In this document: in pieces, positions 1-21,121 of the stretch
Layout of the letters: each line of letters begins with the position of its first letter
Numbering within the stretch: position 1 is the stretch's first letter
Source of the DNA: Pseudidiomarina halophila
Lineage (GTDB): Bacteria > Pseudomonadota > Gammaproteobacteria > Enterobacterales > Alteromonadaceae
Direction: 5' to 3'
Length of the DNA stretch: 64,000 nt
Assembly: GCF_003987215.1 (NCBI RefSeq)
Contig: NZ_PIPW01000002.1
Span: 248,001 to 312,000 of the forward strand
The notes under the pieces: model-generated
Told to the model about the DNA's origin: nothing
The model's database searches: none
The model's input: the letters and a program-made list of their open reading frames with translations, nothing else
Position numbers and translations under genes: made by a program

Positions 1-817
1 TGCCCTTCATCTGTTCCTCGTGGGTGCTGCCGCCTTCGTCATCGATTTGCAGGTCGATTATACACAGCTGCTTTTCCACCAGCGTCACCGGGCCATGCAA
101 AAACTCAGCACTACTAAAGGCTTCCGCATGGATGCTCAACACTTCTTTTAATTTCAAGGCAACTTCGCGGGCAATGGCGTAACCAAAACCGCGGCCTAAT
201 ACCACACAATGTTGCAAGCCCTGAAGTTGTTCTGCCTGTAGCTGTGGGGGTAACTGCTGGGCCTGTCGCAATGCGTCGGGTAAGGCGCTCAGGCCTTCGA
301 GCAATTCGTGATCCTTCTGCCAGTAAGCGCACAACTGACAGAGTGCGCTCAGGCTGGCGAGATAGCTTTTGGTCGCGGCTACTGCCAGTTCCGGCCCCGC
401 ATGCAGGGGTAAAACATCGTCAGCGAGGCGACCCAGCGGCGAATCGACCACATTGACCAGCGCCAGTACGCGGGCGCCGCCGGCTTTGGCGAGCTGGGCT
501 TGTTGCACGATATCGGGGCTTTGCCCGGATTGTGAGATACAAATTGCCAGACAGCCCTCGAGCTTTAACGTGCGCTTGTAGACACCAGCCACCGAGGGGG
601 CGGCGGCAAACACCGGGACGCCACAGCCTACCTCGAACAGGTATTTGGCAAAGACGCCGGCATGATCCGAGGTACCACGGCCGATCATCATGATGGTGCG
701 CGGCGGTATAGCCTGAAGTTCTGCTGCAATTTGCTGGCAACGTTCAGCGTTATTCTCGAGCTGCCGGGCAATAATTTCCGGTGCGGATTTCGCTTCATCC
801 GCCATCTGGTGGCTCAT
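1..817 (-). CDS. nagB-II: SIS-domain glucosamine-6-phosphate deaminase/isomerase (NagB-II type), partial
   Basis: Translation of the minus strand from ATG at 817 stays open to the left edge (272 codons), so the C-terminus is missing; relatives are about 340 residues. It has the two SIS halves of the GlmS isomerase domain without the glutaminase domain: an early GRGTSDHAG phosphate loop, CISQSGQSPD, and later the EVLSIHAEAF and EFLHGP motifs typical of GlmS/AgaS/NagB-II. Known NagB-II proteins convert glucosamine-6-P to fructose-6-P in Shewanella-type N-acetylglucosamine pathways. The start overlaps the stop of the upstream kinase gene (ATGA), so the two are translationally coupled; nagA is expected just beyond the edge, which is inference. 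Sugar specificity (glucosamine versus another amino sugar phosphate) cannot be settled from sequence alone. Confidence 0.8.
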   Translation of the reverse strand, partial: MSHQMADEAKSAPEIIARQLENNAERCQQIAAELQAIPPRTIMMIGRGTSDHAGVFAKYLFEVGCGVPVFAAAPSVAGVYKRTLKLEGCLAICISQSGQSPDIVQQAQLAKAGGARVLALVNVVDSPLGRLADDVLPLHAGPELAVAATKSYLASLSALCQLCAYWQKDHELLEGLSALPDALRQAQQLPPQLQAEQLQGLQHCVVLGRGFGYAIAREVALKLKEVLSIHAEAFSSAEFLHGPVTLVEKQLCIIDLQIDDEGGSTHEEQMKG

Positions 818-1710
818 GATACATCTCCTAAACCGCCGTTCTGATAAAGCAAAATTGCGCCCCATTCCGGGCCAAACTGGGTTGGACGCAGGGCGCTGCG
901 AATGTCTTCGTCAAGCCAGGGTGTCATGGCTTCTGCCACACCGCCGGCGATGACCAGATTGCCGCCACTTAATTGCACGGCTTTGCGGGCGATGTCGCTC
1001 AGATAGCGACTACCGCGTTCAACTAGTGCGCGGGCGGTCGGCTCGTTCTCGCGTGCGAGCTTGAGAATGATTGGGCAAATCTCACCGAACACGCCGGGAT
1101 TAGCTTGAATCAGCCGGTCGACGATATCGGTCGCGCTTTGGCATTGGTAATGACTGCATACAGCTTCGGCCAGTTCGCCGCGCTCGACGACGCCATCGAT
1201 GGCTTCCAGAGTATGCATCACCGCCTGTTTGCCAAGCCAGGCGCCACTGCCCTTATCGCCAAGCAGAAAACCATGGCCACCGAACTGGGTTAGGTTTCCA
1301 TCGACCAGTGCCGCGGCGCATGAACCCGTGCCCATCACTAATACCGCACCATTTTCTCCGGCGTGCGCACCGTACAGGGCGGTGTGCAGGTCGGAGGTAA
1401 AGTGGAATTGCTGGAACGGATGTTGCCATTTGCTTAGTGTTGCAGCTGCTGAGGGCAGGTTAGCGCCGGCTAACCCTGCGCAAACACAAGCGTCGCCCAA
1501 ATAGCGTTGATCAATGTCGGCGGCATCGAAAGCGTTACGGACAGCGCTGAGAATCGATTGCTCAGCGGTGTTACCCTGTCGGGCAATATTGGCTGAACCA
1601 GCGACACCGGAGCCGAGGAGGTCACCCTGTGGGTTGTAGAGTTCAGCGCGGCATTTGGTGCCACCGCCATCAACGCCCACGTAATAGAGAGAAGAGGTTT
1701 TGTGCTTCAT
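814..1710 (-). CDS. nagK: BadF/BadG-family amino-sugar kinase (NagK/MurK-like)
   Basis: A 298-residue cytoplasmic sugar kinase of the ASKHA fold. The first phosphate loop VGVDGGGTKCRAEL is at residues 10-23; later come VCAGLAGAN, the acidic DLHTALYGAH, the second phosphate loop VMGTGSCAAAL, GGHGFLLGDKGSGAWLG and the adenosine motif VIAGGVAEA. Relatives include Shewanella-type GlcNAc kinase and the Clostridium MurK that phosphorylates both GlcNAc and MurNAc. Because MurQ needs MurNAc-6-P and no PTS transporter is present, this enzyme may act on both sugars; that is inference. It is first in an operon with the NagB-II gene and is read divergently from a secreted hydrolase across a candidate operator at 1778-1796. 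Confidence 0.85.
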   Translation of the reverse strand: MKHKTSSLYYVGVDGGGTKCRAELYNPQGDLLGSGVAGSANIARQGNTAEQSILSAVRNAFDAADIDQRYLGDACVCAGLAGANLPSAAATLSKWQHPFQQFHFTSDLHTALYGAHAGENGAVLVMGTGSCAAALVDGNLTQFGGHGFLLGDKGSGAWLGKQAVMHTLEAIDGVVERGELAEAVCSHYQCQSATDIVDRLIQANPGVFGEICPIILKLARENEPTARALVERGSRYLSDIARKAVQLSGGNLVIAGGVAEAMTPWLDEDIRSALRPTQFGPEWGAILLYQNGGLGDVS

Positions 1711-1777
1711 GGCCTCACTTTATAGATTGATTTGTGCCAGCGAATGGTCAACATACTGCCATACTTTGCCCTATGAG

Positions 1778-1796
1778 TTGTAATACTTTATTCTTG
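1778..1796. promoter_or_regulatory. Candidate RpiR/MurR operator, site A
   Basis: The sequence is TTGTAATA-CTT-TATTCTTG, matching 12 of 16 arm positions of the palindrome TTGGAATA-N3-TATTCCAA seen at other murein genes here. It lies in the divergent gap, 68 bp before the kinase ATG and 27 bp before the ATG at 1823, where a bound repressor could block both. It is one of the weaker members; the assignment rests on position and family resemblance. Confidence 0.5.
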
Positions 1797-1822
1797 ATCC
1801 GGGAATAATAAGGAATCGATTG

Positions 1823-3136: not shown

Positions 3137-3144
3137 CGGGCTAC

Positions 3145-3178
3145 GGAAAGGAGGGGCTGCCCCTTCTTTCCCTATTTT
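3145..3178 (+). terminator. Rho-independent terminator after the serine hydrolase gene
   Basis: A 12-bp stem (GGAAAGGAGGGG at 3145-3156 with CCCCTTCTTTCC at 3160-3171, one G-U pair, loop of three) is followed by CTATTTT. It lies nine bases after the TAG/flanking stop region and before the operator of the symporter gene, so it separates the two transcription units. Confidence 0.75.
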
Positions 3179-3200
3179 CTATTCCTGGTATACATTAAAG

Positions 3201-3219
3201 TTGGAATAATCTATTCTAA
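3201..3219. promoter_or_regulatory. Candidate RpiR/MurR operator, site B
   Basis: TTGGAATA-ATC-TATTCTAA matches 15 of 16 arm positions of the shared palindrome and is the best three-base-spacer copy. It ends 30 bp before the ATG of the symporter gene, so a bound repressor would cover the promoter/transcription start of the symporter-murQ-namZ operon. Confidence 0.7.
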
Positions 3220-3249
3220 GCGGTAAATCACTTAACCCGAAACGTCTTT

Positions 3250-4830
3250 ATGCTCGGTTACTATTCTTTCGCTGATGTACTGGTTTTCATCGCTTACGGG
3301 CTGGTTTTGCTCGGCAGTGGCTGGTTGTTTAACCGCCGCAATAAGTCGACGCAGGATTACTTCCTGGGCGGCAATAAGATGCCCATGTGGGTGGTGGCGA
3401 TTTCGGTGCTGGCGACGTCGCAGTCGGCGGCCACGTTTCTTGGTGGTCCGGACCAGGGCTACCGCGGTGATCTGACTTATCTGGCTACTAACATCGGTGC
3501 TTTCATTGCCGTGGGCTTTGTTGCCATCTTTCTGATCCCGAAATTCTATCAGTTTAAGGTCTACACGGTTTACGAGCTGCTGGAACAACGCTTTGGTAGC
3601 GCGGCGAAACGCCAGGCCGGTGTTATGTACCTGTTCGGCCGTATTTTTGCCAGCGGCGCGCGGCTTTATATGGCAGCTATTGCCGTGGCGATGATTCTGT
3701 TTGGTGACTTTGACGCCAGCAGTGTCATTGCCGCAACTCTTATCATTACCCTCGCGGGTTTGCTGTACACAGTGTATGGTGGCATCCGCACCGTTATCTA
3801 TTCAGACGTACTGCAAGCGGGTATCTATGTGAGCGCCGCTATTGCTGTCATCATTGTGCTCTATAACGCTATCCCTATTGGCTTTAGCGAGCTGGTGACA
3901 GCGTTGCAGAATCCTGCTCCGGGCGAGCCGTCGAAGCTGAAACTGATCGATACCGACGTGGATTTCAGCAGCTCAGGGGTATTCAATATCTGGTCAGTGC
4001 TGACCGGTTTCGTGCTGCTTAATATTGCCGCCTTTGGTCTCGACCAGGACATGACGCAACGTGTGCTGACCTGTAAAAATGCCAAAGAAGGCAGCAAAGC
4101 CATGCTGATGTCAGTGGTCATGGTGATCCCGGTTATGCTGCTGTTTATCGTGATCGGCTTATTGCTGTATATCTACTACCAACGGCCAGATATTATGGCA
4201 AGTGGGCAGGATGACGGACCGGTACCGACCTTTGCCGGTGAAGCTGTCACTATTTTCATGTATTACGTGTTGACGGAGATCCCCGCCGGTGTTCGTGGGC
4301 TGGTCACTATAGGTATTATTGCCGCAGCGCTTTCGACCCTGAACTCAGGTCTAAACTCAATGTCGAGCGTACTGATCCAGGATATCTACCGGCCGTGGAA
4401 GTTGCGCCGCGATGCCAGTGCCAGCGACACACACTTTGTGCGGGCGGGGCAGCTCGGGATGACGGTTGTTGCCGCCGCCTTAGCGCTTATGGCTTGCTTG
4501 TGCTACTACTGGCAGCAATACACCGATACGCCGCTGTTGCAGTTTGCCTTAAGCGTTATGGTGTTTTCGTACAGTGGCTTGCTGGGCGTGTACTTCGTCA
4601 CTTTATTTAGCAAGCGCGGCAGCCCCGCTTCGGTGGCCGCAGCATTGGTCATAGGCTTTATCGTACCTTTACTGATGCAACCTTATGTTATGGATGCAAT
4701 TTGGCCAGCGGCCTGGGTGACCGATATCGGCTTTACCTGGCAGCTTATGATTGGCACCGCAATTTCGACCTTAATTTGTTTGACCGGCTCGTCAGCTAAG
4801 GGAGCTCATGTCGACGAGCCTAACCAATAA
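3250..4830 (+). CDS. SSS-family sodium:solute symporter, probable amino-sugar (MurNAc) importer
   Basis: A 526-residue inner-membrane protein with about 13 hydrophobic segments and the solute:sodium symporter signature: the early [24 protein letters not shown], then [20 protein letters not shown], and [21 protein letters not shown]. The family couples sodium entry to uptake of sugars, sialic acid, amino acids and similar solutes. It sits where MurP (the PTS MurNAc permease) would be in an enterobacterial murQ operon: murQ follows after eight bases and namZ overlaps murQ. The inferred substrate is therefore MurNAc or a small muropeptide sugar, taken up without phosphorylation. The start has no strong ribosome site. 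Confidence 0.85.
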
Positions 4831-4838
4831 GAGTAGCT

Positions 4839-5771
4839 ATGGAAGATTCGAACCGCACCGCCGAATTGCTGGCACAGTTAAATAAAATCGTCTCCGAAGG
4901 GCGCAACCCAGAGACGATGGAAATCGATATCCTTTCGAGTGAAGGGATCCTGCGCAAAATTAATCATGAAGATGCCCGTGTGGCACCCGCGGTATCCACG
5001 CAAATACCCAGTATCGCTGAAGCGGTGGATGCTATTGTCGAACGCTTACAGAGGGGCGGCCGGTTGTTTTACATCGGCGCCGGCACCAGTGGTCGCTTAG
5101 GCATTCTGGATGCGGTCGAGTGCCGGCCAACCTTTAGCGTGCCGGACGATCTGGTGCAGGGCATCATCGCCGGTGGCGAGCACGCCATTCAGTTTGCGGT
5201 CGAAGGTGCTGAGGATGACCGCGATGCCGGTGTCGCTGACGTGAAAGCTGTCAATTTAAGTGACAATGACGTGCTGGTCGGGCTTTCGGCGAGTGGCCGC
5301 ACGCCTTATGTTGTCGCCGCGCTCGAATACGCCAACAGTATCGGTTGTGTGAGTGTCTCAGTAACCTGCAATCCGGATTCGCCATTGATGACCACTGCGC
5401 AGATTGGTATTTGCCCGGTAGTGGGCCCAGAAGCCTTAACCGGCTCCACCCGCATGAAATCGGGTACCGCGCAGAAACTGGTACTGAATATGCTTAGTAC
5501 CGCCAGTATGATCCGGCTGGGCAAAACCTACGAAAACCTGATGGTGGATGTTAACGCGAGCAATGAGAAGTTGCGGGCACGGGCGATTCGTATCGTGATG
5601 CAAGCCACCGATTGCAGCCGCGAAACTGCAGAAGAAGCGCTCAAAGCCGCGAAAAACCGCGCTAAACTGGCCATATTGATGATTTTAACCGGCGCTGAAC
5701 TAGATGAGGCCGAATCACTCCTGGCCCAGCAAGATGGCTTTTTACGTCGTGCAGTGGAGCAGAAATCATGA
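4839..5771 (+). CDS. murQ: N-acetylmuramic acid 6-phosphate etherase MurQ
   Basis: A 310-residue SIS-domain enzyme with the family signature [20 protein letters not shown] (starting near residue 80, containing the conserved catalytic glutamate region), [15 protein letters not shown] and [17 protein letters not shown]. MurQ cleaves the D-lactyl ether of MurNAc-6-P to give GlcNAc-6-P and D-lactate in the cytoplasm. Full length compared with E. coli MurQ (298). It lies eight bases after the symporter gene and overlaps the next gene at ATGA, so the three form an operon. Its D-lactate product matches the D-lactate dehydrogenase encoded 2 kb away. Confidence 0.97.
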
Positions 5772-6937
5772 GGATGCTGGTCCGGATAATGGTTCTGATT
5801 GGCTTTATTGGTGTCACATTAACGGGCTGTAGCAGTGCTGAAACAGACGTTCGGGTCGGCGCTGAACGCGCAAGTGAGTACTTACCCCTATTGAGCGGTA
5901 AGCGTGTCGCTTTGGTGGTCAATCAGACCTCGCGGGTGGGTGAGCAGCACCTGGTCGATTACTTGCTGGAGCAAGATGTCGAAGTGGTCAAAGTGCTGGC
6001 GCCGGAACACGGCTTCCGCGGTGATGCTGGCGCTGGCGAAACCATCAATGACGCGCTCGATCCACGCACCGGGCTGCCGATTCTGTCCATCTATGGCAAA
6101 ACCAAGAAACCCTCGGCGGAAATGCTGGCGGATGTCGATACCATCATCTTCGATATTCAGGATGTCGGGGCACGATTTTATACCTATATCAGCACCATGC
6201 ACTATGTGATGGAAGCGGCGGCGGAGCAAGGTATTGCTATGCTGGTACTGGATCGGCCGAATCCGAACGGCGCCTATGTGGATGGTCCCGTGTTAGATCC
6301 AGCCTTTCAGTCGTTCGTCGGTATGCACGAAATTCCGCTACTGCACGGCATGACCGTCGGTGAGTTAGCACAGATGATCAAGGGCGAGGACTGGATTAAT
6401 GCCGCCGACGACCTCGAGTTAATCGTAGTTCCGGTGGCTGACTATGAGCGCACGCAGCCTTATGTGTTACCCGTAGCGCCGAGTCCGAACTTGCCAAATG
6501 CGCAGGCGATTCAGTTGTATCCTTCGTTGTGCCTGTTTGAGGCAACCGCCGTTAGCATTGGCCGTGGTACGGACTTTCCGTTTCAGGTCATGGGCCATGA
6601 CGAAGTGCATTTAGGCGAATTTAAATTTAGCCCGCGCAGCATGCCAAACAGTGCCCCGTCGCCGAAATTAGAAGGGCAAACCGTTTACGGGAAAGATCTG
6701 CGCGAAAGTGACCTGCACGGTCTAGATTTAGGCTTGTTCATTGCTGCCTATCAAAAGTTCGATGCTGCGGGCGTGACATTTTTTACCGCGCCGGACTTTA
6801 TGGATAAGCTGAGTGGCACCGACACCTTGCGTAAAGCCATTATCGCAGGACAGTCGGAAGCTGAGATTCGTGACAGCTGGCAAGCAGACCTTGCCGCGTT
6901 TAAAAAGCGGCGTCAGCCATACCTGCTGTATCCGTAA
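5768..6937 (+). CDS. namZ: DUF1343 lipoprotein, exo-beta-N-acetylmuramidase NamZ type
   Basis: A 389-residue lipoprotein precursor with lipobox LTGC (cysteine near residue 19). The DUF1343/GH171 core is clear: [28 protein letters not shown] (glutamate probably catalytic), [29 protein letters not shown] and [11 protein letters not shown]. Bacillus NamZ removes terminal MurNAc from murein ends. The start overlaps the murQ stop, and the gene ends 13 bases from the convergent regulator gene. Placement next to murQ and a MurNAc-capable importer supports release of MurNAc in the periplasm or at the outer membrane. Confidence 0.88.
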
Positions 6938-6949
6938 TCAAGCAAAGAA

Positions 6950-7798
6950 TCAGCCGCCACGCAGGCGCTGAAATGCTTTGTTGGTTTGCGCGAGAGTCGT
7001 GCGGCCGGCTTCGGAAGCTTGTATCAGCGCAATGAACAGCAAGTCGATGATAAGGTTTTGTGCGGTGCGCGCATGAATAGAAGAAAGTCGTGTCGACTCG
7101 CTTTCTGCCACTGAGTAAAGTTTGACGTCGGCCAACTGGCTGACCGCGGTTTTGCCATAGCGGGTGATAGAAATAATCTGGCATTTATGCCGTTGCGCTT
7201 CTTTAATCACTCGTGTGACTTCGCGCGTGGTGCCCGACTCACTGATGGCAATCACCACATCGCTGGCTGACAAGGTAGCGGCAATGGCCAACTGGATATG
7301 ACTATCGGCGTCGGCTTGTGCTTGCAGTCCTAGTTTTTGCAGTTTGTAGCAGAGATCTTTACAGACCAGTGCGGAACCGCCGACCCCGCTGACCAGAATA
7401 CGATGGGCACCGAGCAAGCGCTGTACGGCATCGGTAAAGGCTTCTTTCTCGTTAAGGTTGCGGGTTTCGCTGAGCACGTTAATTTTGCCGGCCAGCAACT
7501 TATCCGCCATGTCGTTAAAGTCATCGTCCAGGGTGATTTCGCCGTGTAAGCGGGCCGCCTGATGAGCTTTTTTGTTCAGTGCATCGACCACCGATAATTT
7601 AAACGCCGGGTAACCTTTGTATCCCAGTTTCTGGGCAAATTTGACTACGCTGGACTGGCTTACGCCAACGGTTTTTGCCAGCTGCGACGACGACATGTCG
7701 CGCATGGCACTAGGTGAGGCCAGGGTGAATGAGGCAAGCTTGGCTTCGCTGGCCGATAATGAATGCTGTATGGCTTTTATTTTCGCAAATGCGGACAT
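6950..7798 (-). CDS. murR: RpiR-family regulator, MurR-like
   Basis: A 282-residue regulator: an N-terminal helix-turn-helix (about residues 1-77, SSSQLAKTVGVSQSSVVKFAQKLGYKGYPAFK) and a C-terminal SIS domain (about 110-260, with LVSGVGGSA, AISESGTTREV and IISITRYGKTAVSQLAD). MurR proteins repress MurNAc genes and are relieved by MurNAc-6-P, sensed by the SIS domain. It is read divergently from the D-lactate dehydrogenase gene; a copy of the shared palindrome ends only 14 bp before its ATG, implying autoregulation. It is convergent with namZ. Confidence 0.88.
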   Translation of the reverse strand: MSAFAKIKAIQHSLSASEAKLASFTLASPSAMRDMSSSQLAKTVGVSQSSVVKFAQKLGYKGYPAFKLSVVDALNKKAHQAARLHGEITLDDDFNDMADKLLAGKINVLSETRNLNEKEAFTDAVQRLLGAHRILVSGVGGSALVCKDLCYKLQKLGLQAQADADSHIQLAIAATLSASDVVIAISESGTTREVTRVIKEAQRHKCQIISITRYGKTAVSQLADVKLYSVAESESTRLSSIHARTAQNLIIDLLFIALIQASEAGRTTLAQTNKAFQRLRGG

Positions 7799-7811
7799 GA
7801 TGTCCTACCCT

Positions 7812-7830
7812 GTGGAATTATTTATTCAAA
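7812..7830. promoter_or_regulatory. Candidate RpiR/MurR operator, site C
   Basis: GTGGAATT-ATT-TATTCAAA matches 13 of 16 arm positions of the shared palindrome. It lies in the 70-bp divergent gap, 13 bp from the regulator ATG (7798) and 38 bp before the GTG of the D-lactate dehydrogenase gene, suitable for control of both. Confidence 0.6.
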
Positions 7831-7868
7831 TATAAACGAGTTGAAGCGAATATCAAAAGGAGTTTCTG

Positions 7869-11917: not shown

Positions 11918-13753
11918 TACGCCAGGCGTGGGCGCGCCCAGTAAGCCTGCGACCGCAGCCGCCACGCTGGGGCTGTGTATATTAGTGCCGGTCACCGCAT
12001 CAATGGGGTCATAGGCACTGTAATCGTAGCTGGCGAGTGCTGCATCAGCCAAACCGGCGAAACGCGAGAGCACATAAGGGGCGCGCAGAGCGATTACCAC
12101 TGTGGCCTGCTGGCGCGCTTTAGAAGCGGTCAATGCCTGCTCAATCCAGCGGTACTGCGCATCCTTGCTCGGACGGTCGCGCCAGTTTTTCAAATCATCC
12201 ATACCACCCATTTCAGCGAGACTATGATGGGGGGTAATATCGCCAATCACCAGTGTGGCGTTTGGATCCCAGTCTTGCCATGGCGTGCCTTCAGGTAACT
12301 CACTCAGACTCAAACAGTCGACCGAACTGCCGGGCTGCTGTGCTGCAAACGCCTGACGAAAAGCCTGGCAACGCAGGGTATCAGGCATCACCAGTTGCCA
12401 CTTGTTGGTAGTGACGGGCAACACACCCTGGTCGAAAACCTTTGTTAGTGCAGCCGCAGCAAGTTCACGCTCAAGTCTTTTATTCGCTGCCAGAGGCAAT
12501 CGCTTTTCCACATTTTCGATGCGTTCAGCAAGGGGCATATTCCCTGTCGCTTGCAACCCGTACTGCTCTTTTAGTTCAGCAATACGCGCGACAGAGGCTT
12601 GCAGCTGAGTAAAATCAATCGCACCATCTTCGACCGCTCGCTCAAGCCCCGCAAAGTACTGCCAAAAACCTGCGATGTCGTCATTATTACGGATGGTGTA
12701 CGGCATGAGCGCAATATCCGCACCCGCGTGAAAGGTCTGAATAGTCGCTGCTAAGGGGTCAAAATAATGTGCGATACCGGCCATATCGAGTGCATCAGTG
12801 ACGATGACGCCCTGATAACCCAACTCCTGGCGTAGCACCCCGGTCAGAATTTTATGCGACATAGTTGCCGGTAAAATGGTTGGCTCGCCGTCAGTTGCAA
12901 TGAAGGTAGTGTCATCAAGCTGCGGATACTGAATGTGTGCCGTCATGATCATTGCCGGCGGTGAGCTACTTGCAATGCTGCGCTTAAACGGCAATAAATC
13001 GACAGCATCTATGGTCGCACGGTCATGATCGACCCGCGGTAAGCCGGTATGACTATCAACATGGGTGTCGCCGTGTCCGGGGAAATGTTTCAGTGCACTC
13101 ATTACCCCCTGTGCCTGCATTGCTTTGACAGTTGCCTGGCCAAGCGCTGCTACCAGCCCGGCATCCTCGCCGTAGCTTCGTACATTAATTACCGGATTAT
13201 CAGGGTTAACGTTGACATCGACGGTGGGCGCGAAATTTAAATTAAAGCCCAGCATTTTCACTGCTTTCCCAATACCGGCACCGACGCGTTCGGCAAATAA
13301 TGTGCCGTGGTTGGGGTAGGTCGCGCCGATTGCCATATTACCGCTAAAGCGCGTCACAATATCATCCGGCAACCGCGCCACCCGGCCACCTTCCTGATCA
13401 AGCGCGATAAACAAAGGTGGCAACTCATGCTTGCGCATGACCTGCTGCATGGCGTCAATGAGTGACATGATTTGTGGCGTGGTTTCGAGGTTTTCCGCAA
13501 AGACAATCACCCCGCCGATGGCTCCACTACGCAATACTTCCGCGAGTTCCGGTGGCAATTCCGTTACCGCCTGCTGGCAGTCCTCGCTTGGGGTGCCGTC
13601 ATTACAAAAATAGCGGAAGTCGAGCATGAGCTTTTGCCCAAGCATCTGCCGCACTTCTGATAAAGGTTCGCTCGCGCGGCGCTCTGGTGTACACGCGCTA
13701 ATGCTCGCGCACGCGAATAGGATTGTCGTAAATACTACAAAGGTACGAAACAT
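11873..13753 (-). CDS. nagZ: Exported GH3 beta-N-acetylglucosaminidase lipoprotein (two-domain NagZ type)
   Basis: A 626-residue GH3 enzyme with a signal peptide and lipobox ISAC (cysteine near residue 21). The catalytic domain shows ALDQEGGRVARL, LGFNLNFAPTVDVN, the family KHFPGHGDT histidine loop (His-Asp acid/base dyad) and VTDALDMAGI (nucleophile aspartate). A second C-terminal domain of about 230 residues follows, as in the 642-residue Bacillus YbbD/NagZ and unlike the about 340-residue cytoplasmic NagZ of enterobacteria. It should remove GlcNAc from murein fragments outside the cytoplasm and hand MurNAc ends to NamZ. It is read away from the TonB receptor gene; a candidate operator is 52 bp before its ATG. 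Confidence 0.9.
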   Translation of the reverse strand: MFRTFVVFTTILFACASISACTPERRASEPLSEVRQMLGQKLMLDFRYFCNDGTPSEDCQQAVTELPPELAEVLRSGAIGGVIVFAENLETTPQIMSLIDAMQQVMRKHELPPLFIALDQEGGRVARLPDDIVTRFSGNMAIGATYPNHGTLFAERVGAGIGKAVKMLGFNLNFAPTVDVNVNPDNPVINVRSYGEDAGLVAALGQATVKAMQAQGVMSALKHFPGHGDTHVDSHTGLPRVDHDRATIDAVDLLPFKRSIASSSPPAMIMTAHIQYPQLDDTTFIATDGEPTILPATMSHKILTGVLRQELGYQGVIVTDALDMAGIAHYFDPLAATIQTFHAGADIALMPYTIRNNDDIAGFWQYFAGLERAVEDGAIDFTQLQASVARIAELKEQYGLQATGNMPLAERIENVEKRLPLAANKRLERELAAAALTKVFDQGVLPVTTNKWQLVMPDTLRCQAFRQAFAAQQPGSSVDCLSLSELPEGTPWQDWDPNATLVIGDITPHHSLAEMGGMDDLKNWRDRPSKDAQYRWIEQALTASKARQQATVVIALRAPYVLSRFAGLADAALASYDYSAYDPIDAVTGTNIHSPSVAAAVAGLLGAPTPGVLPVTVFPAETEQPQ

Positions 13754-13804
13754 GACTATACTCAGCTGATTAAGGTCTGGCAGGTATCCTACGTGAGGAA
13801 TAGC

Positions 13805-13823
13805 TAAAAATAAATTATTCCTT
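13805..13823. promoter_or_regulatory. Candidate RpiR/MurR operator, site D
   Basis: Read on the minus strand, AAGGAATA-ATT-TATTTTTA matches 11 of 16 arm positions; the GGAATAATTTATT core is the same as in site E. It lies 52 bp before the nagZ ATG. Confidence 0.5.
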
Positions 13824-14035: not shown

Positions 14036-14054
14036 TTGGAATAATTTATTATTT
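14036..14054. promoter_or_regulatory. Candidate RpiR/MurR operator, site E
   Basis: TTGGAATA-ATT-TATTATTT has a perfect left arm and a half-matched right arm (12 of 16). It lies 144 bp before the GTG of the TonB receptor gene, implying a long leader. Confidence 0.55.
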
Positions 14055-14197
14055 ACATTATAAGAATATGTGGTACTTTCAACTCATGATGGATTTTTTC
14101 ATCGGTTGTGGTAAGTCGTCGATACACGGCAGAGATTATAAAAACAAAGCGTAGTGACGCTACGCATCAGATTCTTACAACGAGCGGAGATTGCAAA

Positions 14198-17077
14198 GTG
14201 AAACTCAATAAAATAGCACTCGTGCTGGGATTGACAACAAGTATGAGCGGCCTCGCTTATGCGCAAGATGTTGATCCAGAAGAGAACACACAGCAAAACG
14301 AAGAAGCAGAAAAAGTTGAACGAATTCAGGTAACGGGTTCAAGCATCAAGCGTACAGCAATGGAAGGCGATTTGCCGCTGACTGTTATCTCGCGCGAAGA
14401 TATTGATGCGCAAGGTATTACAACTGCCGAACAGTTAATGTTACAACTTAACGTTGCTTCAAATTCAAATGACAACCTAAGCAGCAACACGGGTATCGTA
14501 AGTGGTGAAGAGCGCGGTAATAACGGTGCTTCAACAGCTAACTTGCGCCAACAGGGCTCAGGCTCGACACTGGTTCTTCTGAACGGTCGTCGTACTGCAA
14601 CCCACGGCCTTAAAGGTCGTTCTGTTGACTTAAACTCTATTCCTTTTTCTGCTATCGAACGCGTTGAAATCTTACGTGACGGCGCCTCAGCCGTTTACGG
14701 TACTGATGCGATCGGTGGTGTAATCAACTTCATCCTGAAAAAAGACTTCCAGGGTGCTCAAGTTGGTACTTTCGTTGATCACACCGAAGCCGGTGGCGGT
14801 AATATCTACCGTTTCAACGTACTCGCAGGTAAAGGTGATCTTTATTCCGACGGTTATAACGTAATGGCGTCATTGTCCTACCGCAAAGCAGAAATTCTGC
14901 GCGGTGTTGAGCGTGACTTTACCAACACCTTCCAACCTGAAAGCGGCTTGTCGCCAGATACGCGTGGTACACCATTCGCATCACTGAACAACCGTCCAGG
15001 TGGTGATGATCCTAACTCACCAAACTACAACCTGATTGGTACCGGCTTACAATACCCGGGCGACCCAGATCGGATTAACGACGTACTCAACGTGCTTGCT
15101 CTCCCTGGCATGCCAGGTTGTGACGTGTATCCGAACATGGGCCCTGATGCTGCAGAGTTGTGGAACCGTGAACGGAACTCTGGTGTGAGCTGTGCCTGGG
15201 ATTATCCACGTGCCGCAGCATTGCAGCAGCCGGTCGATAGCATCGACTTTGTTGCGCGCGGCACCATGGTGCTGGGTGACAATGCAGAAGGTTTTGTTGA
15301 GTTCATGGGCTCAGACGTGACGTCGCAGAAAGTCTTTGAACCGAACCAGATTACTCCCTGGTCAATTGGCTCAGAGGGTTATTACCCTAGCACAGGCGCT
15401 TCTTACGACTATATCGTTGACGCCTTATCAGCGTTCTACGGTGCTGATCAGCTGAATATTGGTGCGCCAATTGCCTATCGCTGGCGTTGTATGGACTGTG
15501 GACCTCGTGAGATCGAAACCACAACTGAAGCAATGAAAATTCAGTTTGGTGTTGAAGGTACTATCGGATTCTGGGATTACCGTGTCGGCTTAGGCCATGC
15601 AACCAACGAATCTCAGTCGCAACTTGGTGGCGGTTACCATTACACCTCATTGTTAGCGCAAGGTATCGGTAGCGGTGATATCAACCCATTCCTGTTACCA
15701 AATCAGTCGCAAACTGAAGCTGGTATGGCAGCATTAGCAGCCGCTTCTGCTGAAGGCGTTATTCTTTATGGTGGTAAAACCACAATGACCCAGTTCGACG
15801 CGTCGATCACGGGTGATAGTGGCTGGAACCTGGGCTTAGGTGGCGGTAACGTTTATGTTGCAGCTGGTGTTGATATTCGTAATGAAGGTTATGAATTCAA
15901 TGGCGACCGTCGCGAAGCAGCAGACCGCCCAGAAATCTATGGTGCGCCTTTTGATAACGCCAATGAACTGGAAGATATCGATCGTACCGTGAAAGCAGTC
16001 TTTACCGAGGCTCTGGTACCTATTGTAGATACCTTTGAAATGAACCTTGCGGTTCGTTATGACCACTACGATGGTTTTGGCGGCACCACTAATCCTAAAG
16101 TAGGCTTAGTCTGGACCCCAGTCGAAGAAGTACTGGTACGTGGTGCATACAGCACCGGTTTCCGTACACCTTCGTTTAACCAGCTTTATAACGGTGTGTC
16201 TGAACAGCCGTACACGGGTCAGGATCTCGCAGATCCACGCGACTGCCCAGGTGGTGAAGTCGATGCAAGCGACCCTCAATGTGACGAACCAATTCAGCCA
16301 ACACGCTTATTCGGTGGTAAAGAAGACTTAGGTCCTGAAGAGTCGAAGCAACAAAGCTTTGGTGTTGTTTATGCACCGACTGACAGCTTCTCGATGAATG
16401 TCGACTGGTGGCGTATCGAAATTGATGGAACTATTCAGATTCCTAGCTTCCGTGACTTGTTGGAAAACTACGAGTTGTTTGAAGAAAACTTCATCCGTAA
16501 CGAAGCTGGCGAACTGGTCACCATCGATTCACGTTATATCAACGCTGGTGGCCGTGAAACAAGTGGTATTGAATTAGGCATTCAGAGCAACGGCGAACTG
16601 GCCGGCGGTGTCTGGAATGTTAACTTCAACGGTAGCTACTTGCTTGAAGATAAGAAAAAGCTGCTCGACAACGCGGCATGGGGTGACAACCTGGTGGGTA
16701 CCCACTCACGTGGTAACATTCCATTGCGTTGGAAACACACCATTATGTTCAACTACGCCAAAGGCGACTTTGCGCATAACCTGACACAGATTTATCGTCA
16801 TAGCTATGACGATGAGATCCCACCAGGTGTACGTTCAGGTATCGCAACCCCAGCGTACTTTGACGGTGAAGTCGGTAGTTATACAATCTATAACTACAGC
16901 TTACGCTACATGGCGTGGGAAGACATTGATGTGACATTCGGCATCAAGAACTTGTTTGACCGCGATCCACCGTTCACTGCACACCAGAACGATTACTCTC
17001 CTGGTGCAGCGTTTGACCCTCGCGTAGCAGATCCACGCGGGCGTTCATACACCCTGCAGTTGACTTACAACTTCTAA
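14198..17077 (+). CDS. TonB-dependent outer-membrane receptor, probable muropeptide/amino-sugar importer
   Basis: I place the start at GTG 14198, preceded by GCGGAGA, because it gives a clean signal peptide (MKLNKIALVLGL to AYA-QD); upstream in-frame codons add only an implausible extension. The 959-residue product has a TonB-box-like VERIQVTGSSIKR, a plug domain (LRQQGSGSTLVLLNGRR, VEILRDGASAVYGTDAIGGVINFIL) and a C-terminal barrel ending in an aromatic residue (TYNF). It is of the large carbohydrate type common in Alteromonadales. It heads an operon-like run with the halogenase-like and amidase genes. A murein-fragment substrate is inferred from the locus and from the palindrome at 14036, not from the sequence itself. 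Confidence 0.88.
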   Translation: MKLNKIALVLGLTTSMSGLAYAQDVDPEENTQQNEEAEKVERIQVTGSSIKRTAMEGDLPLTVISREDIDAQGITTAEQLMLQLNVASNSNDNLSSNTGIVSGEERGNNGASTANLRQQGSGSTLVLLNGRRTATHGLKGRSVDLNSIPFSAIERVEILRDGASAVYGTDAIGGVINFILKKDFQGAQVGTFVDHTEAGGGNIYRFNVLAGKGDLYSDGYNVMASLSYRKAEILRGVERDFTNTFQPESGLSPDTRGTPFASLNNRPGGDDPNSPNYNLIGTGLQYPGDPDRINDVLNVLALPGMPGCDVYPNMGPDAAELWNRERNSGVSCAWDYPRAAALQQPVDSIDFVARGTMVLGDNAEGFVEFMGSDVTSQKVFEPNQITPWSIGSEGYYPSTGASYDYIVDALSAFYGADQLNIGAPIAYRWRCMDCGPREIETTTEAMKIQFGVEGTIGFWDYRVGLGHATNESQSQLGGGYHYTSLLAQGIGSGDINPFLLPNQSQTEAGMAALAAASAEGVILYGGKTTMTQFDASITGDSGWNLGLGGGNVYVAAGVDIRNEGYEFNGDRREAADRPEIYGAPFDNANELEDIDRTVKAVFTEALVPIVDTFEMNLAVRYDHYDGFGGTTNPKVGLVWTPVEEVLVRGAYSTGFRTPSFNQLYNGVSEQPYTGQDLADPRDCPGGEVDASDPQCDEPIQPTRLFGGKEDLGPEESKQQSFGVVYAPTDSFSMNVDWWRIEIDGTIQIPSFRDLLENYELFEENFIRNEAGELVTIDSRYINAGGRETSGIELGIQSNGELAGGVWNVNFNGSYLLEDKKKLLDNAAWGDNLVGTHSRGNIPLRWKHTIMFNYAKGDFAHNLTQIYRHSYDDEIPPGVRSGIATPAYFDGEVGSYTIYNYSLRYMAWEDIDVTFGIKNLFDRDPPFTAHQNDYSPGAAFDPRVADPRGRSYTLQLTYNF

Positions 17078-17099
17078 GTCGCACGGTGATAAAGCAACA

Positions 17100-17130
17100 A
17101 TGCGGTCAGCCTCGGCTGGCCGCATCTATT
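17100..17130 (+). terminator. Hairpin between receptor and halogenase genes, possible attenuating terminator
   Basis: An 11-bp GC-rich stem (17100-17110 with 17115-17125, one G-U pair, loop of four) is followed by CTATTTT. It begins 23 bases after the receptor stop and 17 bases before the next ATG. It may cut readthrough so the receptor is made in excess of downstream proteins. Confidence 0.6.
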
Positions 17131-17141
17131 TTGGTCCTCTG

Positions 17142-18665
17142 ATGAACAATTCGATGACGCATCCGTATCAAATCGTTATCTTAGGTGGGGGCTCGGCAGG
17201 CTGGATGACTGCTGCCGCATTGAGCAAAGTCCTTGACCAGCAAAAGTACCGAATTACCTTAGTCGAATCCGCAGCGATCGGCACCGTATCTGTTGGCGAA
17301 GCCACCATTCCAGGCATTCGCGAATTCAACCAACTTCTCGAAATCAACGAAGACGAGTTTCTGCGTGAAACCAATGGCTCATTCAAGTTAGGCATTGCGT
17401 TTGAAAACTGGCAGAACATCGGTGATTTCTATATGCACCCGTTTGGCCCTTATGGTGTCACCTTACATGGTGTGCATTTCCATCATTACTACTTACGTCA
17501 CCAGCGCGAGCAGGGCGAGGCTGATGCGATGCCGCTCAGCGATCTCAACCTGGAATGGCGGGCGGCAATTGAACATAAATTTACCCGGCCGATTGCCGAC
17601 AAACGCAGTCCGTTGGGGCATATTAAGTACGCCTATCATTTTGATGCACTGAAATACGCGCAATACCTGAAAAAATACGCTACTGCACGGGGTGTGGTGG
17701 CACTAGACGATCGCATGGTCGAAGCCAAACAGCAGGTCAAGCATGGCCCGATTGATGCGTTAATGCTTGAGAAGAATGGCGAGTTAGCCGGCGATTTCTT
17801 TATCGACTGCAGCGGCTTTAAGGCGTTGCTTATTGGTGAAGCGCTAGATGTAAGCTACCACGACTGGCGTAAGTGGATGCCATGTGACAGCGCGGTGGCG
17901 TTGCCAGGTCAGCATGATAACGCTGATATCCTGCCCTATACCCGCTCGATTGCTCATCACGAGGGCTGGCGCTGGCGTATTCCGTTGCAGCACCGCACAG
18001 GTGAGGGTTGGGTGTACTCGAGTCGGTTTACCGATTCAGAAAAGGCTGAGCGGGAATTCCGTGACACTATCGGTAACCATGACAGTAAAGCCAACCATTT
18101 GCGCTGGATCAACGGCCGCCGTGATCAGGCGTGGCGCCATAACTGCGCTGCAATTGGCTTATCCGCCGGTTTTATTGAACCGTTAGAGTCTACCGGCTTG
18201 CAGCTCACGCAGTCTGGCATCATGCGACTTATCAGTTTACTGCCAGGGCAGGGCGAGTTAAGCGAGCGTGCGGCCGCATTTAACCGGTTTACCGCTGAAG
18301 AAATCACCAATATCCGTGATTTTGTGATGTGCCATTACAAACTGACAAACCGGGACGACTCGGAATTCTGGCGTTATTGCCGCGATATGGAAATTCCGGA
18401 TTCACTGCAGCAACGACTCGATCTGTATCAGGAAAACGCCAGTGTTTTTCGTAACAGCAATAATGAGCTGTTTAATGAAATCAGCTGGTTCTCGATGTTT
18501 CAGGGACAAGGGCTCCGCCCTGCAAATGTGCATCCACTGGCCGAGCAAATGCCGGCCGCGACCTTGCAACAGCACCTGCAAACGATTCAACGGGTGTTCG
18601 CACAGTCAGTCGCCCAGCTACCGACCCACGAACAATTTATTAAAGAGCATTGTAAAGCCCCATGA
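17142..18665 (+). CDS. Flavin-dependent tryptophan-halogenase-family protein
   Basis: Start chosen at ATG 17142 (ATG 17154 is also possible) because the earlier in-frame ATG at 17100 lies inside a terminator-like hairpin. The 507-residue product has the FAD loop ILGGGSAGWMTA, GEATIPGIREF, FKLGIAFENW (lysine equivalent to the catalytic one of PrnA), WRWRIPLQ (the WxWxIP halogenase motif) and GFIEPLESTGL (glutamate of the active site). The halogenase residues are therefore present. Such genes commonly accompany large TonB receptors in Alteromonadales and Caulobacter relatives, but their substrates are unknown. The stop overlaps the next ATG. A secondary-metabolite role has no support nearby. 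Confidence 0.85.
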   Translation: MNNSMTHPYQIVILGGGSAGWMTAAALSKVLDQQKYRITLVESAAIGTVSVGEATIPGIREFNQLLEINEDEFLRETNGSFKLGIAFENWQNIGDFYMHPFGPYGVTLHGVHFHHYYLRHQREQGEADAMPLSDLNLEWRAAIEHKFTRPIADKRSPLGHIKYAYHFDALKYAQYLKKYATARGVVALDDRMVEAKQQVKHGPIDALMLEKNGELAGDFFIDCSGFKALLIGEALDVSYHDWRKWMPCDSAVALPGQHDNADILPYTRSIAHHEGWRWRIPLQHRTGEGWVYSSRFTDSEKAEREFRDTIGNHDSKANHLRWINGRRDQAWRHNCAAIGLSAGFIEPLESTGLQLTQSGIMRLISLLPGQGELSERAAAFNRFTAEEITNIRDFVMCHYKLTNRDDSEFWRYCRDMEIPDSLQQRLDLYQENASVFRNSNNELFNEISWFSMFQGQGLRPANVHPLAEQMPAATLQQHLQTIQRVFAQSVAQLPTHEQFIKEHCKAP

Positions 18666-21121
18666 CACGTACTTTTTTGAAACCTTTTAGTATTGCCATG
18701 TTGGCGCTGTTCGCGCTGAATAGCTGCAGCATGCTGGCCGATTATGAGCAAATGCCGTCTGCCAATTATGACCACCGTATTAAGTTGCTGGTCATGCACT
18801 ACACCGCAATCGATTATGGTAAAAGTGTGGACGTACTGGTTGAGCCAAAAGGGCTGAGCTCTCATTACCTGGTGCCGGAATCCGGAGACCCAAGCTATCC
18901 CTATGATGAACTCAAGGTTTTTCAGTTGGTCGATGAGTCGGAACGGGCCTGGCACGCGGGTGACAGCTACTGGCAGGGGCGTACTGACCTCAATGATCAG
19001 TCCATCGGTATCGAAATTGTTAATGTGCCGCAGTGTGAGTGGGATACCACCCAGCAGACATCACGGGCGGAACATGGTGAAAATCGCCTGTGCGTTTTCC
19101 CGGATTATGACCCACAGCAGATTGAAAAGGTGATCGAGTTAGCGCAGGAGATTCTTGCGCGCCATCCTGATATTCATCCAACCGCAGTAGTGGGGCACTC
19201 AGATATTGCCCCAACGCGGAAAAACGATCCGGGTCCACGTTTTCCCTGGTACCAGCTGTATCAACAAGGTGTTGGTGCCTGGTACGAACAGGAGACCCTC
19301 GCACGCTACTGGAAGCAGTTTAACCAGCAGCCCGTTAATACCGGGTTGTTGCAAGCCGCGTTTAATGCCTATGGCTATGGCGTTACTGAAACGGGTGTCT
19401 ACGACGAAACCACGGCGAGTACCGTATCAGCTTTCCAAATGCACTTTTTGCCGTGGCAGGTAACGGGTAAGGCAGATAGTCAAACCAGCGCAGCGCTGTT
19501 CGCGCTATTAGAAAAGTACTTTCCGGAAAAACTTGAAGCCTTATGGGAACGTTATCAAGCCGAAGTTGCCGCGCGTCCTGCACCGGCCTGGGAGCCTAAG
19601 CACGGTCAAGTTGATGCAAGCTTCCCGGAGCCTGAAGCGCAACGCTCCAGCCGTGAATTAGTGAATGATAAGGCCGCATTCAAAAGCTATCGTGGCCGGG
19701 GCGAGCTTGTACTTTCCAGCGAACAGGACGTTACCGCAGTGCTGGAAGTGAATGGCGAAACCCTCAACATTGCAACGCCCCTGTTAGCGGAAAAAACCTA
19801 TGAGTATTCGCTCCATCGGCGCACCCAGAACGGTATCAACACCTTCCATGTGAAGTCGGTAGAGCCCGAAGGTGCGCGCCTTGATGTGCGTATTCCTTAT
19901 CCGCGGTTAATTGACGGGACTACCAACTATAGCGGCAAATTTAAAGAAGTTGACCGCCTTATCGAAGAAGATATCGCAAACGGATTCCCCGGCGCAGTGT
20001 TGCTGGTTGTTAAAGACGGCAAAATTATTAAGCACAGTGCCTACGGCTACGCGCGGCGCTACGATGAGCAGGGGCAGCCCCTCGCTAACCCCACGCCGAT
20101 GCAGCCCGATACCTTGTTCGACGTCGCCTCAAATACCAAAGCGTTCGCCACCTCAATGGCGATGATGCAGTTGGTGGAACGTGGCCTGCTGGACGTGACG
20201 AAGCCGATTTACTATTACCTGCCTGAATACCGCGGTAACGGTCGCGAAGCGCGTACGGTGGAAGACTTGCTCAACCATCATTCCGGTTATGCGCCGCAGG
20301 TACACTTCTTCGACCCCGATAATAAACTGGGTAAGGGGTTCTATTCGCTGGAAAAAGAAAAGACCCAGCGTTTGATGGCGACTCGCGTGCCTTTTGATGT
20401 TGGTAAGGGGGTACGTGCCACCTACAGTGATACTAACTTTATGCTGCTGGGAACCATTATTGAACGCATCACCGGCATGCCGCTCGATCAATATACGGAG
20501 CAGAACATATACGTACCTCTGGGTCTGCATGACACCCTGTTTGCGCCTTTACGCAAAGGACGGCAGCCAACCGAGATCGCAGCGACAGAACTGCAGGGCA
20601 ATACCCGCGGCGGTGTTGTTGACTTCCCGGGCGTGCGCACCTACACCCTGCAAGGCGAAGTGCACGATGAAAAAGCCTTCTACGCGATGGATGAGGTTGC
20701 CGGTCATGCGGGCTTGTTTTCTACCGCCCCGGATTTAGCCGTGCTGATTCAGACGCTGTTGAACGGCGGCGGCTATGGCAATGTGCATTTGTTTGAACCC
20801 AGCGTGCTTGATGCCTTTACCCAGCCGCATCAGAACGAGCGTACCTTCGGTTTAGGCTGGCGTCGTGCCGCCGACGGACAATTGCGCTGGCATTTTGGTC
20901 CTTACGCCAGCCATCAGGCATTTGGTCATACCGGTTGGACCGGTGTTGCCACTGTGGTCGATCCAGCGCTGGACCTGGGCATCATCTTGCTGACCAATGC
21001 CCGGCATAGCCCGACCACAGAAAAAAATGGGGACATTGAGTTTCTCGGCAAGACCTTCGAAACCGGTAATTACGGCAGCGTAATGACTGCCGTTTACGAG
21101 GCTGTGCTAGAGACGCAGTAG
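18662..21121 (+). CDS. Lipoprotein fusion: AmiD-type murein amidase + peptidoglycan-binding domain + YfeW/PBP4B-type serine hydrolase
   Basis: An 819-residue protein with signal peptide and a lipobox-like LNSC (Cys22). Residues about 40-200 are Amidase_2/AmiD: VMHYTA (zinc His46), SSHYLVPE, RAWHAGDSYWQGRTDLND, IGIEIVN, and VVGHSDIAPTRKNDPGP with the remaining zinc ligands. About 225-295 is a PG_binding_1-like repeat. About 400-819 is a serine hydrolase closely resembling E. coli YfeW: SNTK at 490-493, YSDTN near 588, PLGL, ATELQGNTRGG, VHDEKAFYAMDEVAGHAGLFS and GHTGWTG. In E. coli yfeW is part of the murQ operon, and the related Bacillus AmiE is a muropeptide amidase. One polypeptide thus joins two murein-cleaving folds. 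ATGA overlap couples it to the halogenase gene. Confidence 0.9.
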   Translation: MTRTFLKPFSIAMLALFALNSCSMLADYEQMPSANYDHRIKLLVMHYTAIDYGKSVDVLVEPKGLSSHYLVPESGDPSYPYDELKVFQLVDESERAWHAGDSYWQGRTDLNDQSIGIEIVNVPQCEWDTTQQTSRAEHGENRLCVFPDYDPQQIEKVIELAQEILARHPDIHPTAVVGHSDIAPTRKNDPGPRFPWYQLYQQGVGAWYEQETLARYWKQFNQQPVNTGLLQAAFNAYGYGVTETGVYDETTASTVSAFQMHFLPWQVTGKADSQTSAALFALLEKYFPEKLEALWERYQAEVAARPAPAWEPKHGQVDASFPEPEAQRSSRELVNDKAAFKSYRGRGELVLSSEQDVTAVLEVNGETLNIATPLLAEKTYEYSLHRRTQNGINTFHVKSVEPEGARLDVRIPYPRLIDGTTNYSGKFKEVDRLIEEDIANGFPGAVLLVVKDGKIIKHSAYGYARRYDEQGQPLANPTPMQPDTLFDVASNTKAFATSMAMMQLVERGLLDVTKPIYYYLPEYRGNGREARTVEDLLNHHSGYAPQVHFFDPDNKLGKGFYSLEKEKTQRLMATRVPFDVGKGVRATYSDTNFMLLGTIIERITGMPLDQYTEQNIYVPLGLHDTLFAPLRKGRQPTEIAATELQGNTRGGVVDFPGVRTYTLQGEVHDEKAFYAMDEVAGHAGLFSTAPDLAVLIQTLLNGGGYGNVHLFEPSVLDAFTQPHQNERTFGLGWRRAADGQLRWHFGPYASHQAFGHTGWTGVATVVDPALDLGIILLTNARHSPTTEKNGDIEFLGKTFETGNYGSVMTAVYEAVLETQ

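Follow-up and report, generated by a model that had tools for sequence, protein, structure and literature searches.

Bacterial walls are a sizeable marine source of organic nitrogen and carbon. In Escherichia coli, N-acetylmuramic acid (MurNAc) enters through a phosphotransferase system (PTS) encoded with the etherase in the murQ-murP-yfeW operon; we know of no TonB receptor in this system. We take YbbC of Bacillus subtilis to be the exo-muramidase NamZ. In B. subtilis, ybbC stands in the cluster murQRP-amiE-nagZ-ybbC (PMC5061867). The Gram-negative Tannerella forsythia has a nine-gene cluster that includes AmpG and a MurNAc kinase and can use intact murein (PMC5790795, PMC7670621), with the gene order murT-murK-murQ (PMC5790795). 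For the ong cluster of Pseudoalteromonas, deletion of a receptor or symporter is reported to leave growth on MurNAc unchanged (PMC9537276). MurNAc use has been predicted in mat bacteria from MurQ together with an N-acetylglucosamine (GlcNAc) pathway (PMC5507952), and the MupP paper states that Gammaproteobacteria have either MurQ or AmgK-MurU, placing Idiomarina loihiensis among genomes with AmgK and MurU (PMC5371407). Among the matches listed in our literature search, outside of which most subscription journals lay, none dealt with an entire murein-fragment regulon, or with a TonB receptor for such fragments, in marine Gammaproteobacteria. Here, we describe a murein-sugar locus in a 64,000-nucleotide stretch (G000:C3:248001-312000, referred to as the window) of the 2.6-Mb genome of a Pseudidiomarina species.

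Gene content and conservation

Every gene named in a preliminary description of the window was confirmed in place by open reading frames (ORFs) and by Pfam and NCBIfam family models. The observation itself is thus confirmed, and its interpretation as a complete exolytic murein-sugar utilization locus built from Bacillus-like parts is partly supported. The block is larger than first described: nagA and nagP lie directly upstream of the window, and three genes had been omitted: one for an exported protein of 437 amino acids (aa) that belongs to no family, one for an M14 peptidase, and one for a tryptophan-halogenase-like protein. The genes in the window are as follows.

2..865, minus strand: nagB-II, glucosamine-6-phosphate deaminase; the window edge cuts the gene, and nagA and nagP follow outside
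814..1710, minus strand: nagK-type BadF sugar kinase, a proposed GlcNAc and MurNAc kinase; the sole BadF-family match in the genome
1823..3136, plus strand: exported 437-aa protein with no Pfam or NCBIfam family and with invariant SxSK, SN, and KxGxG boxes
3250..4830, plus strand: sodium:solute symporter (SSS; Pfam and NCBIfam), proposed for MurNAc uptake in a MurT-like role
4839..5771, plus strand: murQ, MurNAc-6-phosphate etherase (TIGR00274, 415.6 over a cutoff of 302)
5768..6937, plus strand: namZ, exo-beta-N-acetylmuramidase (NamZ_N and NamZ_C by Pfam), lipobox LTGC
6950..7798, minus strand: MurR/RpiR-type regulator (HTH_6 and SIS by Pfam)
7869..10757, plus strand: fusion of flavin adenine dinucleotide (FAD) oxidase, iron-sulfur (Fe-S), and CCG domains (Pfam), with D-lactate as putative substrate
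10754..11917, plus strand: M14-family carboxypeptidase-like protein, with a weak MpaA match
11873..13753, minus strand: exported GH3 protein, NagZ (PF00933, PRK05337), lipobox ISAC
14198..17077, plus strand: TonB-dependent receptor; the ORF opens at GTG 14108, and GTG 14198 is the more likely start
17100..18665, plus strand: tryptophan-halogenase-like flavoprotein, beside the receptor and before the amidase fusion
18662..21121, plus strand: fusion of Amidase_2, PG_binding_1, and beta-lactamase-type domains (Pfam and NCBIfam)

The genes alternate in direction. A leftward group nagK-nagB-II-nagA-nagP is followed by the rightward 437-aa gene and symporter-murQ-namZ, the leftward murR, the rightward oxidase-M14 pair, the leftward nagZ, and finally the rightward TonB receptor, halogenase-like gene, and amidase fusion. 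Overlaps of 4 bases join the murQ/namZ, oxidase/M14, and halogenase-like/fusion ORFs, and the intergenic share of the locus is 3.7%.

Ten other Pseudidiomarina loci are long enough for comparison, and 7 of them have all 15 genes; the exceptions are G004, with no nagB2 match, and G013 and G015, which have neither the M14 nor the halogenase-like gene. An eleventh Pseudidiomarina locus (G001) sits on a 7.6-kb contig too short for synteny. Strains with the locus include P. terrestris 1ASP75-14 and P. aquimaris SW15. The SSS-murQ-namZ arrangement also occurs in other genera, as a comparative search for the gene set, proposed in the preliminary description, brought out. Because gene content and order recur in other species, the ensemble is not a chance one. 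NamZ is present in 12 of the 26 genomes of the genus, with NagK and full-length MurQ in the same 12, and all three are missing from the other 14; eight more genomes gave only weak MurQ matches, to SIS-domain paralogues. The chance figure for this co-occurrence, one in 9.7 million, is only a guide because related species inherit together. The block is a real, conserved, and apparently coregulated murein-sugar catabolic locus.

A shared operator-like site

A 14-base palindromic site, GGAATAATNTATTC, occurs in five copies in the locus, spread over all four of its intergenic regions that hold gene starts.

1780..1793, plus strand: operator-like site GTAATACTTTATTC, with 2 mismatches, between nagK and the 437-aa gene
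3203..3216, plus strand: operator-like site GGAATAATCTATTC, 34 nucleotides before the symporter
7814..7827, plus strand: operator-like site GGAATTATTTATTC, between murR and the oxidase
13808..13821, minus strand: operator-like site GGAATAATTTATTT, before nagZ
14038..14051, plus strand: operator-like site GGAATAATTTATTA, before the TonB receptor

With up to 2 mismatches allowed, GGAATAATNTATTC matches the window 9 times against 0.82 expected (the largest count in a shuffle was 4); five of these matches are in the locus, all between genes, and the other four fall at three places further right. The positions are kept across the genus: among the Pseudidiomarina regions examined, the nagK/437-aa region carries the site in 10 of 10 and the nagZ/receptor region carries two copies in 10 of 10, the symporter is preceded by the site in 8 of 11, and the murR/oxidase region has it in 8 of 10 (counts without G001, and with G018, a near-copy of G007, left out of three of the four regions). 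In dinucleotide shuffles of 15 loci, run without G001 and G018, eight loci exceeded all 200 shuffles and three had values of 0.005 to 0.035. The locus of G029, a member of another genus unused in motif finding, has 6 matches against 0.82 expected, with 0 of 200 shuffles as high. By ORFs, the matches lie between genes in 4 of 6 cases in G029, 2 of 3 in G034, and 2 of 2 in G033. Elsewhere, L031 has two sites and L095 one, and the site is missing from three loci of Alteromonas and from three of Pseudoalteromonas. Genome-wide, a looser pattern, GGAATWATNTATTM, matches exactly at three places, all of them in the locus. Since the MurR/RpiR-type protein is the sole regulator recognized in the block, we infer that MurR binds the shared site and controls the block.

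A single-region scan (without G018 and G001) gave no near-perfect palindrome of 14 to 20 bases shared across regions, and no Rfam family was found in the window. Sigma-70-like sites numbered 12 against 17 on average in shuffles; as they are no commoner than in shuffles, promoters were not placed. A consensus scan alone gave one further element:

3145..3171, plus strand: terminator-like hairpin of 12 pairs, between the 437-aa gene and the symporter

A proposed catabolic regulon for murein sugars

With gene identities, conservation, the shared site, and co-occurrence established by computation, we consider it likely (probability about 0.8) that the locus is a catabolic regulon under MurR control through which murein amino sugars serve as food. 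Soluble fragments of murein, released by other organisms or by enzymes outside the block, would reach the periplasm, with the TonB receptor admitting the larger of them. Lipoproteins, probably in the outer membrane, would trim them from the ends, with the AmiD/AmiE-type fusion, judging from its domains, stripping peptides while NagZ would release GlcNAc and NamZ MurNAc. NagP would import GlcNAc and, by analogy with Tannerella MurT, the SSS symporter MurNAc; NagK, in a genome with no other BadF kinase, would phosphorylate both sugars. MurQ would convert MurNAc-6-phosphate to GlcNAc-6-phosphate and D-lactate, NagA and NagB-II would lead on to fructose-6-phosphate, and the FAD/Fe-S oxidase would presumably burn the D-lactate. 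MurR may repress the operons through the AATA-N3-TATT-centered palindrome until released by a sugar phosphate, and the exported 437-aa protein probably acts on the peptide part, as its motifs and neighbors weakly suggest.

Several observations weigh against this reading. A number of family assignments fall short of their model cutoffs: the regulator scores 170 of 408 bits to the MurR equivalog, with none above the cutoff, the kinase 300 bits to NagK_SO3507 (cutoff, 370), the exported GH3 protein 180 bits to PRK05337 (cutoff, 207), and NagP 473 bits (equivalog cutoff, 625). No family model names the oxidase a lactate dehydrogenase, the best being GlcD at 181 of 568; of the D-lactate dehydrogenase in the preliminary description, the FAD/Fe-S oxidase stands and the substrate is proposed because MurQ is present. 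The MurNAc kinase activity of NagK is likewise a prediction, as are the growth and expression behavior of the block, both drawn from sequence. The set also comes apart in places: no TonB receptor appears in the examined sequence of the three Alteromonas loci, L033 (Alteromonas sp. ASW11-130) has symporter and namZ adjacent without the intervening murQ of relatives, and NamZ, found in 18 of the 59 genomes searched, occurs in G035 without the other genes. As for the site, it was first spotted by eye in this genome, so its excess in the window is partly circular and other genera provide the fairer test. There, the excess is not significant in G034 (0.125) and G033 (0.28), and neither G030 nor G031 has the site in its locus, nor do 6 of 8 other loci scanned (L027, L028, L029, L030, L032, and L033). 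With one mismatch allowed, GGAATWATNTATTM matches the genome 13 times, including 4 times in the locus; a reversed control pattern matches 5 times.

Uptake, phosphorylation, and catabolism

As the receptor start, GTG 14198 agrees better than GTG 14108 with both the signal peptide and the relative in G034. The receptor of the window is common to 10 long Pseudidiomarina loci (58 to 94%) and G034 (69%), and L148 has a different TonB receptor (36%). G029, G033, and L147 instead have a protein of about 1,000 residues with a CarboxypepD_reg domain near the same genes; that of L147 matches an outer-membrane barrel, and these proteins may be Oar-like TonB receptors. Solved receptors match the window receptor over the plug region, and because the matches are confined to it, the substrate cannot be read from homology. 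The receptor is kept in synteny and shares its site with exported glycosidases, an inner-membrane transporter, and catabolic enzymes, as expected of a TonB-dependent carbohydrate uptake locus; murein fragments are its putative substrate. Among the 10 other long Pseudidiomarina loci, 8 have the adjoining halogenase-like gene and two, G013 and G015, gave no match; G034 has it as well.

The SSS symporter adjoins murQ, as in the Tannerella-type pathway, and by this analogy it may carry MurNAc. In the G001 locus (L129), the symporter match is split, with a gap of about 118 residues separating its two parts, from either a deletion or an assembly fault. The locus proteins scanned include no PTS protein for MurP-type uptake, a search that did not extend to the rest of the genome.

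The nag genes would provide the outlet. Full-length nagB-II scores 488 over a cutoff of 430, nagA (L002 8701-9825) matches TIGR00221 at 296.6 over 225.65, and the permease of the major facilitator superfamily encoded at L002 7422-8798 is nearest to NagP. Nearby, L002 5637-6194 encodes a small exported-looking protein with a repeated charged EAQKDHDKA-like unit, noticed by eye. NagP, NagA, NagB, and NagK with a TonB receptor would also fit GlcNAc use, and in Pseudoalteromonas a MurR/RpiR regulator, an SSS symporter, and TonB receptors serve oxidized chitin (PMC9537276), so the block could be read as a chitin-oligomer or GlcNAc locus with MurQ and NamZ as passengers. This alternative, akin to one of the refuting findings named in the preliminary description (a receptor or symporter specific for unrelated substrates such as chitin oligomers), is weakened to the point of being very improbable. 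The genome has 0 matches each for GH18 and GH20, which speaks for murein and against chitin; NagK occurs only where NamZ and full-length MurQ do; and SSS-murQ-namZ stands without a nagA or nagB match in stretches of other genera (e.g., G029, G030, G034, and L031).

The kinase step is less straightforward. A separate BadF-type MurNAc kinase of the Tannerella type had no match, as the nagK gene in the nag operon is the single BadF match genome-wide. Five related loci (G033, G034, L031, L145, and L147) carry a different type of BadF kinase between symporter and murQ, an order of genes like that in Tannerella; a kinase at this position is also missing in G029, G030, L027, L029, and L148. Because Pseudidiomarina has no counterpart of the kinase found beside murQ in sister genera, NagK would have to do both jobs: if the catabolic reading is true, one kinase must have two substrates, unless an unrelated kinase does the work. 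In Tannerella MurK, MurNAc binding is tied to the small side chains S133, P134, and L135 (PMC10465942). At this position, in an alignment made without G018 and the L146 kinase and with a register that we read ourselves, NagK has Gly-Gly-His and the kinases beside murQ have Gly-Gly-Trp. The latter is also found in 8zo3, deposited as an N-acetylmuramic acid/N-acetylglucosamine kinase, but also in human NagK, so sequence does not settle the substrate range of NagK, and it is possible that it phosphorylates both MurNAc and GlcNAc. Another explanation is that NagK is not the source of MurNAc-6-phosphate, with the symporter carrying anhydro-MurNAc or a kinase of a different family feeding MurQ. The presence of AnmK in the genome would fit, as would the lack here of the kinase seen between symporter and murQ in five related loci. 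However, AnmK lies outside the locus, the kinase beside murQ in those five loci fits MurNAc as substrate, and NamZ is expected to release MurNAc and not the anhydro form; we regard this explanation as unlikely.

Exported murein enzymes

NagZ and NamZ were said to carry lipoboxes, and both do (ISAC and LTGC, respectively). Neither has Asp at +2, and lipoproteins without Asp at this position are generally sorted to the outer membrane, where both proteins probably sit. NamZ scores 269 bits for NamZ_N and 103 bits for NamZ_C, and NagZ has the motifs KHFPGHG and TDAL. The fusion protein consists of Amidase_2 (aa 38 to 192), PG_binding_1 (229 to 279), and a PBP4B/AmiE-type beta-lactamase fold (430 to 786), the last matching PF00144 and PBP4B (458.9 over 385); the nearest solved structures to its Amidase_2 domain are AmpDh3 and AmiD. 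The C-terminal part is predicted to be an AmiE-type amidase of the beta-lactamase fold. Catalytic-type motifs, which we presume to carry their usual meaning, are present in NagZ, Amidase_2, and the AmiE-like part. The fusion has LNSC, outside the lipobox pattern used, with a Cys at a like place by eye in the relatives G029, G033, and G034. Convergent with it at 21124-22515 is an amidohydrolase gene with a lipoprotein-like start, which occupies the same place in 5 of the 10 other long Pseudidiomarina loci. The M14 protein has no visible signal peptide or lipobox, and its weak MpaA match suggests that it acts in the cytoplasm on murein peptides.

No endolytic murein hydrolase was recognized among the locus proteins scanned, so the locus would depend on fragments made elsewhere; with no kinase beside murQ and little for peptides, calling it complete was too strong. 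The same observation would suit a locus that recycles the turnover of the cell's own wall, not one for food uptake, with the TonB receptor merely recovering leaked material, and in B. subtilis a similar cluster, murQRP-amiE-nagZ-ybbC, serves to recover what the turnover of its own wall releases (PMC5061867). Housekeeping recycling appears to be provided for elsewhere in the genome, however, by AnmK and by the smaller of two further GH3 frames (339 aa, fitting a cytoplasmic NagZ; the other is 855 aa). In addition, NamZ, NagK, and full-length MurQ are lacking from 14 of the 26 genomes in the genus, the products feed catabolism through NagA and NagB-II, and the shared site precedes the TonB receptor. 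Own-wall recycling therefore seems a poor account of the block, and the description of a locus set apart for murein-sugar catabolism, in which a TonB receptor is combined with exported exolytic enzymes, is supported.

An exported protein without a family

The 437-aa protein has an export-type signal peptide, and some relatives have a lipobox-like Cys at that place. The family is rare, since of 394 genomes of the order only 7, from 6 genera, contain it, and it keeps company with murein genes: in 6 of the 7 genomes, the gene lies within about 10 kb of namZ, and in G029 it is on another contig beside a nagK-type gene. Around relatives (L145 9998-15848, L146 5568-11715, L147 3260-10738, and L148 9856-12368), SH3/NlpC-P60 proteins occur in L145, L146, L147, and G034, MR_MLE proteins in L145, L146, L147, and L148, and DUF819 in L145 and L146; such neighbors point toward murein peptides. 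The MR_MLE protein of L145 is nearest to L-Ala-D/L-Glu epimerase, at 261 bits, below the cutoff of 500.

Invariant in nine aligned members are S135, S137, K138, S185, N186, C260, C263, K366, G368, and G370, which recall serine beta-lactamase-fold peptidases. An AlphaFold2 model from seven sequences of one genus had a mean predicted local distance difference test score of 38, and of the 50 Foldseek hits listed for this low-confidence model, 37 were beta-lactamases or penicillin-binding proteins, none with an E value of 0.001 or below. The protein did not match beta-lactamase-type Pfam families. A profile comparison with class A beta-lactamases (2 sequences) and penicillin-binding proteins (22 sequences), a weak test, lent no support; nor did an earlier comparison without G018, in which, of five beta-lactamase frames, one was cut short and two contained no sequence or the wrong one. 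Pfam gave a single match among the nine relatives, to an unrelated myosin-tail-interacting domain (E 0.002), and there was no sequence match of weight in the PDB. A hydrolase role is proposed because of the invariant motifs and gene neighbors, and the protein probably, if on weak grounds, works on the peptide part of murein.

More tentatively, and at somewhat less than even odds, the locus may form a TonB-energized peptidoglycan utilization system of marine Gammaproteobacteria for both sugars and peptides. Such a system would combine a large-fragment receptor, the AmiD-AmiE fusion, lipoprotein NagZ and NamZ, a two-substrate NagK, and a new SxSK/KxG serine-hydrolase family for stem peptides, with additions in sister genera (NlpC/P60, an L-Ala-D/L-Glu-epimerase-like protein, and a DUF819 membrane protein) for eating the walls of others. 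The parts are mostly of known kinds, and it is their combination and the exported protein without a family that merit testing. The set is compact and testable, with one regulator, one site, one receptor, and three exported enzymes, plus the kinase and the rare family, and species with and without the locus inside one genus offer a clean comparison.

Origin of NamZ and comparison with described systems

The window NamZ is 73 to 82% identical to those of six Pseudidiomarina strains, and we take the genus of the 26 genomes to be Pseudidiomarina. Among the matches in a pattern-based list made for NamZ only, 66 of the 80 loci listed fall outside Alteromonas, Pseudoalteromonas, Rheinheimera, Glaciecola, and Pseudidiomarina, and all 66 are Bacteroidota, at 50 to 59% identity. 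A tree of 53 rows (the window, 43 of the 80 listed loci, 7 of 17 other NamZ loci, and 2 further loci, with the incomplete namZ of L145 left out) places 22 of the 24 rows of the window's order in one fully supported clade beside the Bacteroidota rows; outside it are the NamZ of L147 and the distant one of G035 (31% identity). The tree fits gene transfer between the window's order and Bacteroidota, with donor and direction not fixed because no Firmicutes were sampled and the root is for drawing only. The Bacillus likeness fits the enzyme logic but finds no support in descent, as NamZ is nearest to Bacteroidota among the loci listed and the symporter is of the kind seen in Tannerella, with no MurP PTS.

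Like B. subtilis, the locus brings exported NagZ, an AmiE-type amidase, MurQ, and a MurR-type regulator (a predicted one here) together in one place (PMC5061867). It differs in having an SSS symporter and kinase in place of the MurP PTS, an AmiE-type domain that is joined to one of the Amidase_2/AmiD type, lipoproteins in a Gram-negative bacterium, and a TonB receptor, NagPABK, and an FAD/Fe-S oxidase preceded by the same site. In common with E. coli murQ-murP-yfeW it has MurQ, a regulator of the MurR type (a predicted one here), and a domain of the PBP4B (YfeW) type that passes the NCBIfam cutoff. NamZ_N matched 3 of 14 control genomes, and E. coli was not among them. The MurT-MurK-MurQ system of Tannerella forsythia is likewise Gram-negative, with sodium-symporter-type MurNAc uptake and MurQ (PMC5790795, PMC7670621), but it belongs to an auxotroph that needs MurNAc for its wall and uses AmpG for muropeptides, whereas here there is a catabolic outlet (NagA and NagB-II) and, in Pseudidiomarina, no kinase beside murQ. 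The Pseudoalteromonas ong cluster also has TonB receptors, a hexosaminidase, an SSS symporter, a sugar kinase, and a MurR/RpiR repressor, with other enzymes and with oxidized chitin (GlcNAc1A) as substrate (PMC9537276). Finally, RmNag3 of Rhodothermus marinus, thought to be periplasmic, joins a NagZ-type GH3 to a beta-lactamase domain in one protein (PMC6987092), whereas the partner of the beta-lactamase-type domain in the present locus is an AmiD-type amidase.

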